From IMG/VR virus record IMGVR_UViG_3300042987_000978, positions 1 through 40,914 of that record: a stretch of 40,914 nt of DNA. One strand, 5' to 3'. Made by a program: the position numbers and the translations under genes. The notes beneath the pieces are model-generated. The model made no database searches, had not been told where the DNA came from, and saw only the letters and a list, made by a program, of their open reading frames with translations. Positions 31,678 through 39,298 of this stretch are shown one piece after another. The stretch comes from a virus. Position 1 is the stretch's first letter; every line of letters begins with the position of its first letter.

Positions 31678-32040
31678 TTAGTCGTCCGCCGTTGTGAAAT
31701 CGTCGTCCTCGGCTGCGCCCTCGTAGCCCAAATCCCACTGCGTGGTGATGTATTGGAACAGTTCGCGGTCCCAGCTCAAAAGGTTAATCTTTTCTTCGTT
31801 CTCGGTGATAATCGCTGAACACACTGCGCACAACGCCGGGTCCCCCACCATCAGCAGGTAGTCGCCCGGCTGCCAGTCGGCCAACACACGACGAGCTTTG
31901 CTGATCATGGCGTGGGTGTTATACGGTTTGCGCGGGCGGCTAAACACAGCCCGCAGCGCCCCAAAGCGCCGAGCATCTGAAAGATCTTTTGAGTGATCAA
32001 CTTGAACCACAAAGACGGTGCGCGTATTACCGGGTTGCAT
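31678..32040 (-). CDS. Conserved hypothetical phage replication-region protein
   Basis: 120 residues, mixed alpha/beta. The blocks VFVVQVDHSKDLSDARRFGA, then ALRAVFSRPRKPYNTHAMIS and WQPGDYLLMVGDPALCAVCS belong to a hypothetical family often found beside phage polymerase genes. A short acidic tail (EGAAEDDDFTTADD) ends the protein. No active-site motif. It overlaps the polymerase stop by 14 bases, so translation is coupled. Confidence 0.65.
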   Translation of the reverse strand: MQPGNTRTVFVVQVDHSKDLSDARRFGALRAVFSRPRKPYNTHAMISKARRVLADWQPGDYLLMVGDPALCAVCSAIITENEEKINLLSWDRELFQYITTQWDLGYEGAAEDDDFTTADD

Positions 32041-33868
32041 TTTTACGTTTCCTAGGTTGTTTAAGGGGCGGAGCGATGAGCGCTAACTCCTCGGTTGAAA
32101 GATACCCGACGCAACCCACGGCCATCGCGATCTTGAGCGCTTCCTTCAAGTACCACGTGTGGTCGAGGTCCGCCGGGTGGGTTGTGAAATCTTGAACGGT
32201 CATGCAGGCCCGAGCGCCGTCGGTTTTGGGCACCTTGTTTCTGTTCTTGACGTAGCGGATAGGCTCAAGCGCGGGGTCATTTGATTGATACCAGCGCACC
32301 ACCCGCCCCAAGTATGAGCCGGCCTGCTGACCGCCGCCAGTGACGTTACGCGCCGAGATGAAGTCTTTGAACGGCGCAGCCATGATCGTATCGAGCAGCG
32401 GGGTGCCGTTCGCGAGCCACTCACCCACCGCGTCGGCGCACACCTGCGCAGTGGGGTTCTTCTTGAGCGACAACGGCGCGTAAATACCTTTAACTTTCAG
32501 GCTTCGGTCGGGTTTGACCGCGATGTAGTTGTTGACGTCTTTCATCGCCAGTACGCGATACGGAGTGAACTCAAAAGAGAACTTTGAAATCTCACCGAAC
32601 CGCCGCACCACCTTATGAACGGTCTCTTCAAGGTCATTCGAATACTGAATGGCTATACCGTCGGTGTTGGCCGAGAGCGTTGTCGCGCCCGCCAGCTCAA
32701 GCCATTCGATTAACATCAGCAGCGTGAACTGCCCGGTGAGCGTTACGGCTAGCATCAGGTCCGGCGCGTACAGGACCGAGTACCGACTGGCTAACTTTCC
32801 GAACGTGCCATTTAAAGAAATTTTGAGCGTTGCGTCCGTGGTCTTATCACCAGAACGCTTTGCATCCAACCGGCGCTCGTAGATCTTTCGATATTCAGCG
32901 ACGAAGTCCTCACCCAGTCCGGCAGGTACAAAACCGCACTCGAGAATGATACTGGGGTAGAAGCTAGCGGCGTCAATATCACAGATGACGCTGTCCCCTG
33001 CAACGTGACAGATCTGTTTATCGTGAACACTGTGAATGCCTCCTACGCCGAGCTGATACTCCCCGGTGCCGAACTTGACGGTCTGTAGCCCTAGGAAGTC
33101 TGGCAGCTGCACGTGCCCGGTGTTCGGGTTCATATTGAAGGTATGCGTAGCCACGCGGTCAAGCAGACCCTGCAGCTCAGCGTTGCGAAACCTCAAGAAC
33201 GCGGGCGGAGTGTACCGCACGGTTTTCGGTATAGGGTTCTCTTTACGTTGCAGCGACATACTGGTGATGTAGGCCTGCTCAGCCATTTGAGAATCAGACT
33301 TGCTGCGCATATCGACGCCGTAACGGCGGCTCATTTCAACACGCAACAATATCTCTTTTTCTAAATGTTTCAGCAGCTCCGCTGTGGTTTCAACGTCGTT
33401 GTGGCAGTACTCAAGCAGCACCGTCTCCTGCTCGGGACGTATCAGCTCATCATGGTGAATGGGCAGATCCTGCAGCCGGGGCATATGCATTCGCGCTCCA
33501 TAGGCTTTCAAACCTACAAACGACGGCGCAACCTCAATCAGGTCAATCCAGTCAAAGCGCACCTCAGGCAGCATGTATGAACGCATAGCTACCCAGGGGG
33601 CAAGCCGATTCTTGATGATATCATCCGCTATACGCTTGATATCAGATTCGCTGCGACCGTCAACAAACGCCGCAACGATCACGTTGTCAAACTCGCGATT
33701 GTTGAACCCGACGAGAGTGCGGTCTTCTTGGCGCATGAACTGCCTGAGCCGAGCGGGCGCGTTCGGCTCATGACGCCAAAGGTCAAACCATTCGCCGGTG
33801 TCTACGTCAAGTGCGCAGAACAACGTGCGGTTGCGGTACGTTTCAGTATCAAACACCCAGGTGCTCAT
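32027..33868 (-). CDS. Family B DNA polymerase with 3'-5' exonuclease
   Basis: 613 residues, compact. Exonuclease motifs: FDTETY (Asp7, Glu9), GFNNREFDN (Asp61) and YCHNDVETT (Tyr154, Asp158). Polymerase motifs: A, DAASFYPSII with catalytic Asp299; B, KISLNGTFG with Lys349 and Asn353; C, SANTDGIAI with Asp403. In motif C the first Asp of the usual Y-x-DTD is replaced by Asn401; the metal-binding second Asp is kept, so activity is expected. There is no room for a large TPR1/TPR2-type insertion with a terminal protein function. It is the replicative enzyme of the unit. It overlaps both neighbours. Confidence 0.92.
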   Translation of the reverse strand: MSTWVFDTETYRNRTLFCALDVDTGEWFDLWRHEPNAPARLRQFMRQEDRTLVGFNNREFDNVIVAAFVDGRSESDIKRIADDIIKNRLAPWVAMRSYMLPEVRFDWIDLIEVAPSFVGLKAYGARMHMPRLQDLPIHHDELIRPEQETVLLEYCHNDVETTAELLKHLEKEILLRVEMSRRYGVDMRSKSDSQMAEQAYITSMSLQRKENPIPKTVRYTPPAFLRFRNAELQGLLDRVATHTFNMNPNTGHVQLPDFLGLQTVKFGTGEYQLGVGGIHSVHDKQICHVAGDSVICDIDAASFYPSIILECGFVPAGLGEDFVAEYRKIYERRLDAKRSGDKTTDATLKISLNGTFGKLASRYSVLYAPDLMLAVTLTGQFTLLMLIEWLELAGATTLSANTDGIAIQYSNDLEETVHKVVRRFGEISKFSFEFTPYRVLAMKDVNNYIAVKPDRSLKVKGIYAPLSLKKNPTAQVCADAVGEWLANGTPLLDTIMAAPFKDFISARNVTGGGQQAGSYLGRVVRWYQSNDPALEPIRYVKNRNKVPKTDGARACMTVQDFTTHPADLDHTWYLKEALKIAMAVGCVGYLSTEELALIAPPLKQPRKRKNATR

Positions 33869-34125
33869 CGGTCTTGATTGACGTAACCGGAAGTGGGCTC
33901 AGCGTCATCATCAGCTGAGGCGTTCTCAAGCTCAATGAGCTTCTCAAGAAAGTGAACCGCCTTTTGAAGATCCTGAACGCCGTTCTTTTCGTGATAACGC
34001 TCAACATACTTCGTCACGCAGCCCACAAAGTAACCGCGACCGTAAAGCCGCCACTGACGATCCCAGTGCTCTTCGCCGCCCTTCTTGTAGTGATCACCGC
34101 CGATTTGTTTCAGATTAGCTTTCAT
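33865..34125 (-). CDS. DUF3310 protein
   Basis: 86 residues. IGGDHYKKGGEEHWDRQWRL, then YGRGYFVGCVTKYVERYHEK and DLQKAVHFLEKLIELE are the full DUF3310 pattern (H-Y then G-x-x-x-K-Y-x-x-R-x-x-x-K-x-G...DL-x-K-A). The family is widespread in phages next to polymerases and nucleotide enzymes, and its biochemical role is not established; some databases label it as a nucleotide kinase-like protein. The 4-base overlap with the polymerase start and 11-base overlap with the HD gene show operon membership. Confidence 0.85.
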   Translation of the reverse strand: MKANLKQIGGDHYKKGGEEHWDRQWRLYGRGYFVGCVTKYVERYHEKNGVQDLQKAVHFLEKLIELENASADDDAEPTSGYVNQDR

Positions 34126-34609
34126 AACGCATACCCCGAATGGTGTTGAACAACTTGAGTTCAGATCCGCTCAGGATGAACTCGCTCGCATAAGCCACAT
34201 AACGGTCATACACCTCGAGCATGCGGCGGTTGCCGAGCCGCACCTCCCGGAGGCAAAACAACGCCCCGTGAGCGATATCGGCCAGCTTGAGCGTGCGCGC
34301 CTCGCGAGCGTTGAGGTTGGGGTAACTCAGGCCCGCGTCATTCATGAGCCTGCGCTCAAGTCGATCGACCTGATCACCGATACCGTATTCGCGTTTGGCG
34401 GGCGAGGGAATATCGCCGGTGTGTTGCTCGGCGAGGTCATGAAACAACGCGGCTGTTAGAACCTCACGGCTAGCGTCCGGGTCAAGCAGCAACACCAAGC
34501 AGGCCACTCCGTGTGAGTGGTGACCTACGGTTTCAAGTTGATGCGTCATGAGGGTGTGAAAGCGTTTGACTTCGCTTCCGTTGAGTATGAATTCAAGGGT
34601 TTTTCTCAT
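34115..34609 (-). CDS. HD-domain 5'-deoxynucleotidase (YfbR-like)
   Basis: 164 residues from ATG 34609; the preceding GTG is a less likely start. The HD signature is complete: GHHSHGVA (His31/His33), ALFHDLAEQHTGDIPSPAK (His57, Asp58) and KLADIAHG (Asp111). The T-G-D-x-P-x-P-x-K block is the hallmark of YfbR-type enzymes, which remove phosphate from deoxyribonucleoside 5'-monophosphates. A phage enzyme next to a thymidylate synthase-like gene could adjust dNMP pools, for example discarding one pyrimidine monophosphate. It is the first gene after the 34651-34680 promoter, with a weak Shine-Dalgarno sequence. Confidence 0.82.
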   Translation of the reverse strand: MRKTLEFILNGSEVKRFHTLMTHQLETVGHHSHGVACLVLLLDPDASREVLTAALFHDLAEQHTGDIPSPAKREYGIGDQVDRLERRLMNDAGLSYPNLNAREARTLKLADIAHGALFCLREVRLGNRRMLEVYDRYVAYASEFILSGSELKLFNTIRGMRYES

Positions 34610-34650
34610 CACTTAGTTCTCAAGTTAAAAGTTATGAAGCTAGAAACAAA

Positions 34651-34684: not shown

Positions 34685-35677
34685 TCACGTTGAGCGCTTC
34701 TTTTCTTCACGGCGCTCAACCCACTCAATCGCTGCACGACGCCAGTCAGCCGCACCTACGGCACGGGCTTCTTGAAGACCGCTGCGGCCCGCTCGGCGCT
34801 CAGCGCTAACGAGCGCTAACTGCCGCGCCGTGTGAGAAAGAAAAGCGTTTTTGTACGGGTTGTTTGCGAACGGGTTAATGCAGAACCATTCACATTCGTA
34901 CAGGAACAGCTCCGGGTCCGGGTAGCTCATCAACGCTCGGGGAGTGACCTGCCCCAACCAGTAGTAATCAAAATCACGAGCCGAGGGCGGTTGCTCAACG
35001 TAACGCTGCGCGTCGTAAAGCTCGGTGTAAAGATGCATGTTGCTACTGACCTGCCGATACAGACCCACGGTCAGTCCGGCCGAAGTTGCAACGAACTCCT
35101 GCAGCACGCTGAAGTGCACCGCGTTGGCGCCACACGCGCCCCACCAGATATCGTTGCTGCGGTTGAACACGGTCATGTTCAGCCGACCGTGCCGCACTTC
35201 AAAGACTATCTGCGTGTTGCAGGCTTTGTCTTTTGTAGTTTTGATGAGATCCGCTGCATCCCACATCTGAATAACGGCCTGCCGCGTGTTGGGATCTTTC
35301 TTCAGCAGCTCGATGACCGCCTTCAGCTGATCAAAACCGAAGTGCCGCCGCCAGCGGTAACCGTAAGCCGCGTTAAACGTAACACCATCATCGCTGTATT
35401 GGCCGATGCGGCTGTTAAACTGCTCAAGGAACGCCACGTCGTTGCGCCCCGCGAGCATCCACACCGACTCCAGCAGGTGAAAGATCGGGTTAGCGTCTCG
35501 GCCCGGATGAAACAATACGCGCTCATTAGGCCTCAAGTAATTGATGATGAACGTGCCTTCAAAGGTCAGGGCCGGGCCGTTGCGCGTCTGCCGAGTGTCG
35601 ACCTTGCGAGTGCGTAGTTTCCAGAACATCTCTGAGAAAGCCTCATTAACGTTCGAGCAGGTGATGTTAAAAGTCAT
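34685..35677 (-). CDS. Thymidylate synthase-like enzyme (dTMP synthase or dUMP hydroxymethylase)
   Basis: 330 residues. Catalytic Cys153 is in KACNTQIVF; the folate/dUMP helix is NPIFHLLESVWMLAG with Glu70; the phosphate and base pocket is FNRSNDIWWG; His215-x-Tyr217 is in SSNMHLYTEL. All are features of the ThyA/hydroxymethylase superfamily. The Asn that selects dUMP (FN in ThyA) is shifted by one residue as GAN185, so a dUMP-type rather than dCMP-type substrate is likely. ThyA makes dTMP; phages with hypermodified thymine use a paralogue to make 5-hydroxymethyl-dUMP. The surrounding kinase, transferase and PLP genes favour the second role. TAAATG joins it to the upstream gene. Confidence 0.85.
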   Translation of the reverse strand: MTFNITCSNVNEAFSEMFWKLRTRKVDTRQTRNGPALTFEGTFIINYLRPNERVLFHPGRDANPIFHLLESVWMLAGRNDVAFLEQFNSRIGQYSDDGVTFNAAYGYRWRRHFGFDQLKAVIELLKKDPNTRQAVIQMWDAADLIKTTKDKACNTQIVFEVRHGRLNMTVFNRSNDIWWGACGANAVHFSVLQEFVATSAGLTVGLYRQVSSNMHLYTELYDAQRYVEQPPSARDFDYYWLGQVTPRALMSYPDPELFLYECEWFCINPFANNPYKNAFLSHTARQLALVSAERRAGRSGLQEARAVGAADWRRAAIEWVERREEKKRST

Positions 35678-36598
35678 TTAGAACTCCGTTTCAGGTTTGT
35701 AACGAGTCTTGGGCACGCCTTCGCCCAACACGGTACGAGCGTATTTGCTGTATTCGCACATAATGTTCTGAACATCATGCAGCGTTAAATCGTCAATATC
35801 GAGGTAGCTGGCTATAGCCTCTTGAATCTTGATGAGTTGTTGATTGAAGTCCTCAGGTTTCCAACCTGCGCCGGCGGTGCGATTGAGCAGGTAATTTAAC
35901 CCTCGCGAGCTACCCGGCCCGATCGGTGCATAGGTGTAGAGGTCTTCCGCCGGACCTAAGTGCGCGGGCGAGTAAGTCAGATCAGCAGTCACCTGCCCAG
36001 CCATGAAGGTGCTGATACCGAACGACGTGGTCATCAGGTTGACTACGTTTTCAATTTTAGGCCGCTCGTAGTCGATTTCTTCGATGATAGCCTGATTGAG
36101 CTGAGCTGCCGGAGCAATGATATGCCGCGCTACGGCGAGGCTCTTCTGACCGTCGGGGTCTTTCTTGGTCGGGTAGACCATGTACGCGCCGCTGTAGACC
36201 TTGCCAGCTTTGGCTCTGAAATTTTCAATCGCTGCGCTAAAACGCTCAGGTATGAACTCGGCCGGAGCCACGGGTAAGACCCGTTCGTAAATCAAATGCC
36301 GCAGGGTCGGGGGCCAGTTAATCAGCCGCGCTATAAGCAGTTGAAACCATAGGTCTCGGCGCTCTTCATCTGGCTCAATCATATTGGTCAAGATCCAGCG
36401 CGTCACGCGGTCATCACGGCGACGAATATTGGTGAACTTGTAATCACGCAGCACCGAGTCATTAGTGTAGGGCGCTTCGCCTCCCCGCTCTTTGACAATT
36501 CGAATGACTTCGCGCTCCCACGTGAAGTAAAGCACCCCGTCAAGGCTAGCTATTTCTTCACGAGTCCGAGGTCTCGCAAACGGGCATTCCTGTATCAT
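35678..36598 (-). CDS. Helical HMUDK/aGPT-Pplase-type DNA modification protein
   Basis: 306 residues. The signature of the helical domain described beside 5-hydroxymethyl-dU DNA kinases is complete. It runs FTWEREVIRIVKERGG, then APYTNDSVLRDYKFTNIRRR with DDRVTRWI, LWFQLLIARLINWPPTL, GKVYSGAYMVYP, TFMAGQVTADLTY, GPGSSRGLNYLL, and the closing LHDVQNIMCEYSKYAR. The family was predicted by comparative genomics to act in thymidine hypermodification, possibly on flipped-out bases like the glycosylase fold it resembles. Databases often call it a nucleotide kinase domain protein, but it has no Walker motif. It is stand-alone here, with its kinase partner encoded next door (ATGA overlap). Confidence 0.8.
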   Translation of the reverse strand: MIQECPFARPRTREEIASLDGVLYFTWEREVIRIVKERGGEAPYTNDSVLRDYKFTNIRRRDDRVTRWILTNMIEPDEERRDLWFQLLIARLINWPPTLRHLIYERVLPVAPAEFIPERFSAAIENFRAKAGKVYSGAYMVYPTKKDPDGQKSLAVARHIIAPAAQLNQAIIEEIDYERPKIENVVNLMTTSFGISTFMAGQVTADLTYSPAHLGPAEDLYTYAPIGPGSSRGLNYLLNRTAGAGWKPEDFNQQLIKIQEAIASYLDIDDLTLHDVQNIMCEYSKYARTVLGEGVPKTRYKPETEF

Positions 36599-37161
36599 CG
36601 TTCAAACTCCTCAATTATGTTCAACAGCTCAGGGTGCGGGTCAGTGTGATCAATCAGACGTACGTCATACCCCGCACTACGTAGATTCTTATAACAGTTC
36701 ACCACTGACTCAAATTTGTCGATGAGGTTCTTAGGGTTAAACGGTTTGTCGTTACCGGCGTCGAGCCGGCGCTGTTTGACGCGGTCAATGCAAAGATCCA
36801 GCGGCGTGTTCAAGAATGCATACACATCACAGCCGGTGGGGTGAACGGCCTGAGTCACAGCCCCGCCCAGCCCACTGGCTGAAACCAACGCCCCCTCGTA
36901 GAGCACATGCCCATGTGGATGAGCACGCAGTATCTTATCGGCTATTTCGGCCTGCGTCTTGATGGCGTCCGTGCCGCCGCAGACGTTATCATATTTACCG
37001 ATGATGAACAACGGCTGTTGAACGGTGGGCGGCTCAACACGATAGCCGGCGATGCGCGGGCCGCTCATCAACGTCTGATTAGGGTAGGTGAAAAAGTGCC
37101 TAATGGCGGTGGTCTTGCCTGAACCAAAGGTGCCCGCGACTCGCAGGATGACGTTACGCAT
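36595..37161 (-). CDS. P-loop 5-hydroxymethyl-dU DNA kinase
   Basis: 188 residues. Walker A is GTFGSGKTT at residues 10-18. Later blocks are PLFIIGKYDNVCGGTDAIKT, GHVLYEGALVSASGLGG, VYAFLNTPLDLCIDRVKQRR and the C-terminal helix of the P-loop nucleotide kinase fold. The G-K-Y-x-x-x-C-G-G-x-D substrate loop and the Y/F-E-G-x-L-V-S segment match the kinases (5-HMUDK) that phosphorylate 5-hydroxymethyl-dU in the DNA polymer in phages such as Salmonella ViI and Pseudomonas M6. This is activation for later amino-acid addition. It overlaps neighbours by 4 and 8 bases. Confidence 0.8.
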   Translation of the reverse strand: MRNVILRVAGTFGSGKTTAIRHFFTYPNQTLMSGPRIAGYRVEPPTVQQPLFIIGKYDNVCGGTDAIKTQAEIADKILRAHPHGHVLYEGALVSASGLGGAVTQAVHPTGCDVYAFLNTPLDLCIDRVKQRRLDAGNDKPFNPKNLIDKFESVVNCYKNLRSAGYDVRLIDHTDPHPELLNIIEEFER

Positions 37162-38173
37162 GTTCTAAGTTCTCCGTTATGAAATATTCCGCTCGGTAGG
37201 GTTGCCCCGTGCGGGGAAATATACCTGCTTTTTCGCGCAAAGACAAGCGCTCCGTTTCACACTCAGCTCTCAGCCAGTCAGGCAGCCCTTCAGCGCGGAT
37301 ATCTTTGAACACCTCCGTAAAGGTCTGCTGCCCCCTCGCGTCGGCCCACTCAATGCGTTCCTGCGCCATGTCGGCGTAAACGCCGGGGTAACGTCGACCG
37401 AAGAAATGGTTTTTGAATGTGCACAGGTTCGACTCTAACGTAAAGTAAGATATATATGGGGTGTCGTGATTCTGTTCTGAAAACTCAAAAAGAATGTTTT
37501 CAGCCTGCCCATTCAGCCAAGAGCACATTTTACCGAAGTTATCATAATTGCCGTCAAACTCGTTATTCGCCCGTTTGTCCCATACTAGCTCATCGCGCCC
37601 GAGCAGGAACAACATACCGTTACGGTGAGAACGGCTGCCCGATTTGTCACTGAACAGCAGGTCGTCACAATCCGCACCGTAGCCGTTCAAAAAGACATAC
37701 TCAAGGTAGCTAAATGATGATAGTCTCCCAAAAGAAAAGTAACAGTTGCGCACAAGGTCCCATAATTGGTCATACGGGCCGGTGAGCATGTTAACTTGTG
37801 ACCCGTGTTCGGCAACCAACTCGGCATACATCTTTATGGCCTGAACGGTTTCCTTCTTTTGATACCGCCGGTCGGTGTCAAACTGCAGCGTGTCCCACTC
37901 GTCGTTGAACCATTTTTCAAACCCGGTTAACGCCGCCCTAGCGGGGGGCACCGAAGGCAGTCGCGTAAACAGCCGCAGCGAAGTGATAGGGTTCTGCGTC
38001 ATGCCGTTCAAAAACGCAAACCACAACCGCTGCTCGGCGTCCCAACCGTAACGCTGGGCCAACTCGGGCATGTACAGGTAGACAAGACCGGGCATGATGC
38101 CGTGGGTTAAATTAAGGCCGTAAAGCTTATCAAAGTACCCTCGGCGATTTTCAAGCAGGCGGTAATCAATCAT
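37154..38173 (-). CDS. Candidate amino acid:DNA transferase (aGPT-Pplase-type)
   Basis: 339 residues, largely helical and aromatic-rich. Blocks: ENRRGYFDKLYGLNLTHGIM, MPGLVYLYMPELAQRYGWDA, QRLWFAFLNGMTQNPITSLR, VRNCYFSFGRLSSFSYLEYV and a GADCDDLLFSDKSGSRSHRNG loop. The L-W-F-A-F-L-N-G-x-T-Q-N-P-x-T block is what I associate with the aGPT-Pplase clade that transfers an amino acid to phosphorylated 5-hmdU in DNA. I am less sure of this family than of the kinase. The position between the kinase and the PLP enzyme supports it. Residues to test are the Asp-Asp and Ser-Arg-Ser-His-Arg loop near 175-190. It starts inside the previous stop (ATGA). Confidence 0.62.
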   Translation of the reverse strand: MIDYRLLENRRGYFDKLYGLNLTHGIMPGLVYLYMPELAQRYGWDAEQRLWFAFLNGMTQNPITSLRLFTRLPSVPPARAALTGFEKWFNDEWDTLQFDTDRRYQKKETVQAIKMYAELVAEHGSQVNMLTGPYDQLWDLVRNCYFSFGRLSSFSYLEYVFLNGYGADCDDLLFSDKSGSRSHRNGMLFLLGRDELVWDKRANNEFDGNYDNFGKMCSWLNGQAENILFEFSEQNHDTPYISYFTLESNLCTFKNHFFGRRYPGVYADMAQERIEWADARGQQTFTEVFKDIRAEGLPDWLRAECETERLSLREKAGIFPRTGQPYRAEYFITENLEHA

Positions 38174-38340
38174 CGCTGAGACTCCTCAATAAAAACGTCA
38201 GCTGCTACAAATGCGTTCATGGCGTCTTCCTGCCAAGACGTTTCGTCATTCGCGGCAAACTGCAGCATGAAAAACATCGCCACCACCTCGCGCAGTGTCA
38301 TTTCGCGAGCGGGTTTTCCGCCAACATCATTATCATCCAT
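38170..38340 (-). CDS. Small protein of the modification operon (56 residues)
   Basis: ATG 38340 with AGGAG upstream opens MDDNDVGGKPAREMTLREVV, then AMFFMLQFAANDETSWQEDA and a helical end. It overlaps the PLP gene by 8 bases and the transferase start by ATGA, so it is translated as part of the same operon. It is acidic with one amphipathic, hydrophobic helix. I do not recognise the family. Possible roles are a small partner of the PLP enzyme or transferase. Confidence 0.62.
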   Translation of the reverse strand: MDDNDVGGKPAREMTLREVVAMFFMLQFAANDETSWQEDAMNAFVAADVFIEESQR

Positions 38341-39298
38341 TTTCAGTTCTCCTAGTGTAAAAGGGTTCTATGACTTTGGGGTTGGGAGCTGAACCTACAA
38401 TCCAAAAACCCCAGGAGTCATCCTGCGGTATGAGGCGCTGCTCGCGCTGCCAACGCCAGATCTTAGCTTCGTAAGTCGGGTGGAAGTCAATACCGTCAAA
38501 CCGCTCGCCTTTGAACTTATCACTATAACGACTGTAGCCCGTGGTGTGCAGGCTATGATGTTTCCACGCGAACGGTAGGTGCGTAATGTCTACACCGATG
38601 TGCTCCATACGCTCGCGTACCCAGGCGTGCTTTTCCGGACCTATACCCACCGTGATGAGCTTTTCAAGATTGTGAGGTTCACGGCTCAACCCCAGCAGCA
38701 CGCTGCAGAGACTATTGCACGAGCCGGCGGGCATGACTAAGGTCTTCACCTCCGGGGGCAGGTTTCGGGTCTGGTTGGCGCCGACCTCATGAAACTTACG
38801 CACTTCTTCAGCCGAGTAGCGAGCGTGGGGCAGCGTGATGCCGTACTCGACGACCAGCGAAGTTTCCTGCGCCAGGTCGGCCACCCGGCGCTGTATGATC
38901 GGATTATACGGACCATTGGCAAATTCAAACTCTGCTCCGAAGCCGTAGGCTATGCGCGGGTTTTCGTGCGTCAACACGGTCTGAGGCCGACTGTAAACAA
39001 TTTGACGACTCTTCAAACCGTAATGCGCCCCCACGATTGCGCTCATACTCAGCTGAGGAGATTGAATGCTCGCTCCGGTGACGATATGCGTGCGGCCAGG
39101 GCGGTAACGATTCACATACCATATCAGCTGGCGCATCTTTGAACCGTTGGGACCGCCGTAGCCGAGCGGCGCAAAGTGATCATCGCGTTTGAACCAGATG
39201 CCCGAGCGGTTCTGCCACGGGGTGAGCAGGCCCAAGTGTTCATCCCACTTGATGCGGCTGCGGTCCATTGACAAAACCGGAAACACCGTATCGCTCAT
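38333..39298 (-). CDS. PLP-dependent enzyme, ACC deaminase/tryptophan-synthase-beta fold
   Basis: 321 residues of fold-type II. FKRDDHFAPLGYGGPNGSKM carries the likely Schiff-base Lys54, equal to the K of G-G-N-K in ACC deaminase and D-cysteine desulfhydrase. HIVTGASIQSPQLSMSAIVG is the cofactor and substrate loop, and LVMPAGSCNSLCSVLLGL the phosphate-binding Gly/Ser loop. Its place in a 5-hmdU kinase/transferase operon suggests it acts on an amino acid already attached to thymidine in DNA, for example removing carboxylate, as PLP enzymes do in characterised hypermodification pathways. A free-amino-acid lyase function is the alternative. Translation of the next gene starts within its end. Confidence 0.78.
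   Translation of the reverse strand: MSDTVFPVLSMDRSRIKWDEHLGLLTPWQNRSGIWFKRDDHFAPLGYGGPNGSKMRQLIWYVNRYRPGRTHIVTGASIQSPQLSMSAIVGAHYGLKSRQIVYSRPQTVLTHENPRIAYGFGAEFEFANGPYNPIIQRRVADLAQETSLVVEYGITLPHARYSAEEVRKFHEVGANQTRNLPPEVKTLVMPAGSCNSLCSVLLGLSREPHNLEKLITVGIGPEKHAWVRERMEHIGVDITHLPFAWKHHSLHTTGYSRYSDKFKGERFDGIDFHPTYEAKIWRWQREQRLIPQDDSWGFWIVGSAPNPKVIEPFYTRRTENG

Follow-up and report, generated by a model that had tools for sequence, protein, structure and literature searches.

A compact viral operon predicted to hypermodify thymidine, and tailoring variants among its relatives

We analysed a predicted thymidine hypermodification operon in the whole of the 40,914-base IMG/VR virus record IMGVR_UViG_3300042987_000978 (hereafter the window), which is evidently a genome fragment, since related contigs reach 53-61 kb. 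Six open reading frames (ORFs) with ATG starts run along the minus strand from 39298 to 34685, encoding, in order, a pyridoxal phosphate (PLP) enzyme, a protein of 56 amino acids (aa), an amino acid:DNA transferase (ADDT), a putative kinase of 5-hydroxymethyldeoxyuridine (5-hmdU) in DNA, its helical partner (HMUDK_hel, here also HEL) and a thymidylate synthase (TS)-like enzyme. Successive junctions are overlaps of 8, 4, 8 and 4 bases and then a direct stop-start, so that the positions, order and coupling are exactly as claimed in a preliminary description made from the sequence alone. Downstream of the TS-like gene, the block extends through an HD-domain gene (34612-34115) and a DUF3310 gene (34125-33865) up to a DNA polymerase gene:

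38333..39298, minus strand: PLP-dependent fold-type II enzyme, 321 aa, predicted decarboxylase of a DNA-bound amino acid, homologue of Vi01_182 of Salmonella phage ViI
38170..38340, minus strand: 56-aa ORF with no Pfam, PHROG or NCBIfam match
37154..38173, minus strand: ADDT (aGPT-Pplase2), 339 aa, PF18724 match at 1.6e-14
36595..37161, minus strand: predicted P-loop 5-hmdU DNA kinase, 188 aa, Walker A motif GTFGSGKT
35678..36598, minus strand: HMUDK_hel (aGPT-Pplase1), helical partner of the kinase, 306 aa, PF18723 match at 2e-40
34685..35677, minus strand: TS-fold enzyme read as a deoxyuridine monophosphate (dUMP) hydroxymethylase, 330 aa, PF00303 match at 3.4e-24
34115..34612, minus strand: HD/YfbR-type nucleotidase, PF12917 match at 3.2e-10, HD motif kept
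33865..34125, minus strand: DUF3310 protein, candidate 5-hmdUMP kinase, PF11753 match at 3.4e-7 and phrog_236 match at 2e-14
32027..33868, minus strand: family B DNA polymerase, predicted to copy with 5-hmdUTP, phrog_1252 match at 7.7e-162

Two scans of IMG/VR yielded 128 loci (L numbers below), 82 of which carry the full series from the PLP gene through ADDT, kinase, HEL, TS, HD and DUF3310 to the polymerase, with near-constant overlaps inside the core (median spacing of -4 bases for ADDT-kinase across 117 loci, -8 for kinase-HEL across 112 and 0 for HEL-TS across 110), an arrangement far beyond chance. In sampled alignments, homologues were 57-81% (ADDT) and 62-80% (PLP) identical to the window's proteins (98-100% for the near-identical contig L002/L082), and the main motifs were invariant in 36-40 homologues, which indicates that the operon is maintained as a unit. 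A DNA-level search against phage records returned short TS matches only, and a search of genome contigs for a host returned two actinobacterial contigs from metagenome-assembled genomes with a distant ADDT (37-40% identity) and none for the window.

The 56-residue gene is present as first described, but it is not conserved: in many relatives its slot is empty or holds other small ORFs, and look-alikes (in L005, L006, L007, L012, L031 and L038) have no constant position in the operon. We therefore rejected it as a pathway component; it probably lies outside the pathway and is incidental.

Families encoded by the operon

To place each protein, we built profiles from its IMG/VR relatives and searched phages M6, PaMx11, Pam3, Bhz59, ViI and Heath with them. 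The PLP profile matched ViI gp182 at 9e-79 and M6 gp052 at merely 0.011. The window's PLP protein is itself 32.6% identical to ViI gp182 (8.6e-60) and matches phrog_3650 (5.6e-76) as well as D-cysteine desulfhydrase-type models; its AF2 model (predicted local distance difference test score, 89) has D-cysteine desulfhydrase and ACC deaminase as its best folds in the PDB. Lys54 (within NGSKMRQ), presumed to be the Schiff-base lysine, and the loop 190-PAGSCNS are kept in an alignment of 40 PLP homologues. By homology to ViI, whose DNA carries 5-(2-aminoethoxy)methyl-deoxyuridine (5-NeOmdU), the protein would be a decarboxylase. Notes in the ViI record identify orf00226 as the PLP protein, orf00247 as ADDT, orf00067 as the kinase and orf00160 as HEL, with which the gene numbers of Lee et al. 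are said to agree.

The ADDT match to PF18724 (55 bits) exceeds the family's cut-off, and the ADDT profile recovered ViI gp199 (4e-35) and Heath gp3 of a Mycobacterium phage (7e-69), the latter being the nearest known ADDT at 37% identity. The same profile missed the ADDTs of M6, PaMx11, Pam3 and Bhz59, though all are bona fide PF18724 members, and in the ADDT tree this M6 group forms a single, fully supported clade separate from the window group. A sequence search for solved structures found none resembling ADDT. The 'aGPT-Pplase-type' label first given to this protein named the right family, for which Pfam's current name is ADDT; the Pfam families ADDT and HMUDK_hel seem to correspond to the older aGPT-Pplase2 and aGPT-Pplase1, respectively, because of the cassette orders in Pam3 and SN1, where aGPT-Pplase1 lies between kinase and hydroxymethylase (PMC9476957), and because of the Guerrero annotation of an ADDT homologue.

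For the kinase, the PF18748 match (1.4e-5, 25.1 bits) falls slightly under the 27-bit cut-off, and the kinase profile matched PaMx11 gp49 (3e-29; the closest known kinase, at 37% identity), M6 gp054 (7e-19) and ViI gp061 (1e-9). Purified M6 5-hmdU DNA kinase is active on 5-hmdU DNA at TG (PMC6449724). HMUDK_hel exceeded the PF18723 cut-off at 139 bits, and its profile matched M6 gp055 (2e-49) and ViI gp130 (1e-20). All three central proteins thus fall in the expected families (ADDT and HMUDK_hel by Pfam, the kinase by direct profile), and the earlier reading of the genes as a thymidine hypermodification pathway holds: it had named a failure of these three to match as grounds for refutation, and they do match. 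Existing phage annotation names these enzymes differently: the kinase is labelled terminase small subunit in M6 gp054, ViI gp061, PaMx11 gp49 and phrog_800, and the radical S-adenosylmethionine (SAM) enzyme is annotated as DNA repair photolyase, so that automatic annotation hides such cassettes.

The TS-fold enzyme is 44% identical to the PaMx11 and M6 enzymes. Its best match in the PDB is a cytidine monophosphate (CMP) 5-hydroxymethylase (91.7 bits, versus 60.8 for the best thymidylate synthase), the WDEWAD segment of TS, with its tryptophan, is missing at the equivalent site, and it has Asn in GANAVHF where the CMP enzyme has Asp. Members of the thymidylate synthase superfamily that act on uracil have Asn here, and those that act on cytosine have Asp; a dUMP hydroxymethylase is thus the best reading of the enzyme. 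The adjoining HD gene, which also neighbours the hydroxymethylase gene in M6, PaMx11, Pam3 and Bhz59, may encode an enzyme that lowers thymidine mono- or triphosphate (dTMP or dTTP), and the DUF3310 protein, whose matching PHROGs are named nucleotide kinase and whose Bhz59 homologue is 60% identical, would phosphorylate 5-hmdUMP; together, the two are a likely 5-hmdUTP supply module. This pair (33865-34612) accompanies the hydroxymethylase in M6, PaMx11, Bhz59 and the window lineage, and the polymerase type varies. The polymerase had been called family B at the outset, which its PHROG match bears out, and it is 38% identical to those of Vibrio phage LP.1 and CAjan-type phages.

Kinase, HEL and TS profiles all ranked the M6, PaMx11, Pam3 and Bhz59 proteins over those of ViI, and the HD and DUF3310 profiles matched M6-group phages only. 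Judged by all these profiles, the operon is a mosaic, with an M6/PaMx11-type 5-hmdU front end, a ViI-type transfer and decarboxylation back end and an adjoining family B polymerase.

Predicted product and its alternatives

We consider it likely, on the basis of these homologies, that the operon makes a hypermodified thymidine, 5-NeOmdU, replacing part of the thymidine, as in ViI. In Ackermannviridae DNA, 5-NeOmdU occupies ~40% of thymidine positions, and many endonucleases fail on such DNA (PMC11721090). What we observe is gene order, families, relatedness and absences; from these we infer the reactions, the amino acid donor and the final base as follows. The TS-fold enzyme would convert dUMP to 5-hydroxymethyl-dUMP, the HD nucleotidase and DUF3310 protein would bias the pool toward 5-hmdUTP, and the family B polymerase would incorporate it. 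After replication, the P-loop kinase and its helical partner would phosphorylate a subset of 5-hmdU in DNA, ADDT would exchange the phosphate for an amino acid (most likely serine, via its side-chain oxygen), and the PLP enzyme would decarboxylate the attached amino acid to give 5-NeOmdU, an amine-bearing base expected to block restriction enzymes and other nucleases. Hydroxymethylation and kinase steps would thus be carried out by M6/PaMx11-type proteins, and transfer and decarboxylation by ViI-type proteins.

Enzymes of the other known routes were sought in the window and in 26 related contigs of 39.8-101.8 kb, the majority 50-61 kb long. On its own, PF04055 is a weak test for radical SAM enzymes (M6's own scores 22.2 bits against a 29.5-bit cut-off), so we searched with M6 gp053 as well; neither the family nor this query found a radical SAM gene in the window, as first described, or in the relatives, and the Pam3 and Bhz59 controls matched at 73-83% identity. 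Nmad5 was likewise absent throughout this set (M6, Pam3 and Bhz59 controls positive), as were the flavin adenine dinucleotide (FAD) enzyme of PaMx11, an FAD-lyase, and its GNAT acetyltransferase (PaMx11 control positive). These absences remove the known carbon-linked and FAD/acetyl routes for the lineage, as far as homology tells. The O-linked, decarboxylated product, initially favoured for want of a radical SAM gene, now also has positive support from the ViI-type PLP and ADDT proteins.

Several observations weigh against 5-NeOmdU, favour an alternative to it, or do both; in that alternative, the pathway is the same up to amino-acid transfer and its product differs, through another amino acid or amine or a PLP enzyme that does not decarboxylate. 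The window's ADDT is just 25% identical to that of ViI, which sits on a very long branch of the tree with uncertain placement. For Heath-type phages, which have the nearest known ADDT, no PLP gene was found and we know of no thymidine product, so that serine can be called only the most likely donor, by analogy with the ViI product. The PLP protein has a D-cysteine desulfhydrase-like fold, and the relatives of that desulfhydrase among fold-type II PLP enzymes do not belong to the classical decarboxylases; some relatives of the window, moreover, retain ADDT without any PLP gene. Yet PLP and ADDT co-occur across most of the lineage, and each matches its counterpart in the 5-NeOmdU-making ViI (PMC11721090), and we regard this alternative as unlikely. 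Two further points also count against a 5-NeOmdU product: the window is a fragment of a genome, and the second P-loop kinase of ViI (gp196) has no homologue in the window or related loci, for which reason we call the operon ViI-like in its back end and not a full ViI-type system.

A pathway that ends at 5-hmdU or phosphorylated 5-hmdU, or an operon in decay, would be in keeping with the loss of PLP genes in some relatives; it is very improbable given that all ORFs are intact and motifs are kept across 36-40 homologues at 57-98% identity. A carbon-linked, M6-type product, 5-aminoethyl-deoxyuridine, would suit the M6-type kinase, helical, hydroxymethylase, HD and DUF3310 genes but hardly the window and 26 relatives, which have neither radical SAM nor Nmad5 genes and whose PLP and ADDT proteins are not M6-type, and we give it next to no credence.

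Tailoring genes among relatives

The window's closest clade includes L005-L011, L031 and L081, in which ADDT is 76-79% identical and no PLP gene adjoins it, although L008, L011, L031 and L081 (ADDT at L008:6999-8015, L011:9983-10999, L031:10001-10999 and L081:10001-11005) retain the other operon genes. No PLP gene was found anywhere on the L008, L031 and L081 contigs (60.8, 57.5 and 45.7 kb). Because those PLP-less relatives that were placed in the ADDT tree nest within PLP-bearing ones, the absence is best read as loss, and we predict for the sister clade an amino-acid thymidine that stays undecarboxylated. A second, independent loss is apparent in L019, where a 24-residue PLP relic (L019:8205-8276) lies upstream of ADDT; a PLP piece in L024 is not such a relic, being cut by the contig edge. 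In one lineage (L015, L016, L085 and L086), the PLP gene lies on the opposite strand, ~7 kb from ADDT, which indicates that the gene is able to relocate without the core operon. Record IMGVR_UViG_3300047121_000347 (101.8 kb; L011, L083 and L139) holds two operon versions, with and without PLP, and is probably two related genomes fused in assembly. At L167:7980-10065, a PLP gene comes after ADDT; the contig was binned with an actinobacterial genome and is possibly a prophage or a phage contig of another lineage.

We also noted an unannotated protein of ~250 aa. Among 26 informative contigs from a scan for this protein, 24, from several phage lineages, have its gene immediately upstream of ADDT and coupled to it (L056:1885-2631; also L051-L055, L061, L062, L064, L069, L070, L072, L143-L146, L148-L154 and L156-L165). 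It occurs beside PLP-bearing operons and, in quite different phages, without PLP, and is absent from the window; in L154, its gene is duplicated in tandem. No relative was found in Pfam, PHROG or known phages. Its structure model matches SAM methyltransferases, with motif-I-like glycines and a D-x-P motif kept, which makes it a candidate for a new enzyme that tailors modified thymidine and, if so, for a new class of such enzymes.

It is possible, and we propose only tentatively, that the lineage varies one core pathway: operons with PLP would make 5-NeOmdU or a close analogue, those without it a carboxylated seryl-type thymidine, and those with the methyltransferase-fold protein a methylated derivative. 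We know of no earlier description of the carboxylated seryl-type or methylated thymidine derivatives. If correct, closely related operons that differ in the PLP or methyltransferase-fold gene would allow each tailoring step to be compared.

Comparison with known systems

Among known phages, ViI (Ackermannviridae) has PLP and ADDT proteins of the same subfamilies as the window, together with a kinase, HMUDK_hel and a TS-fold enzyme, and, like the window, lacks Nmad5, the PaMx11 FAD enzyme and GNAT. It differs in the dispersal of its genes across 157 kb and in its kinase, HEL and TS proteins, to which the window's are less close than they are to those of M6. Conversely, M6 (which makes 5-aminoethyl-deoxyuridine, 5-NedU), SN1, Bhz59 and Pam3 share the kinase, HMUDK_hel and hydroxymethylase with the window, and the HD (including Pam3) and DUF3310 (M6 and Bhz59) genes are packed tightly together ahead of the polymerase gene, as in the window. 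M6 nevertheless has radical SAM and Nmad5 genes, another PLP family, another ADDT clade and a polymerase unrelated to the window's (annotated as pol I type in Pam3 and Bhz59). PaMx11 shares the closest kinase (37%), the hydroxymethylase (44%), HD and DUF3310, and differs in its FAD oxidoreductase and acetyltransferase tailoring genes; the stretch that we read contains no PLP gene. Coopervirus-type Mycobacterium phages (Heath gp3) have the closest known ADDT (37%), and no ViI-type PLP homologue was seen in them.

Combinations of such genes in viral metagenomes were reportedly already announced by Lee et al. in 2022. The system is already known in kind, and the window adds a further variant to it. 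If our reading is correct, the 5-hmdU/DNA-kinase module and the tailoring module swap independently between phage groups, beside different polymerases, and the window lineage offers a source of ViI-type DNA modification compact enough for work in a laboratory strain.

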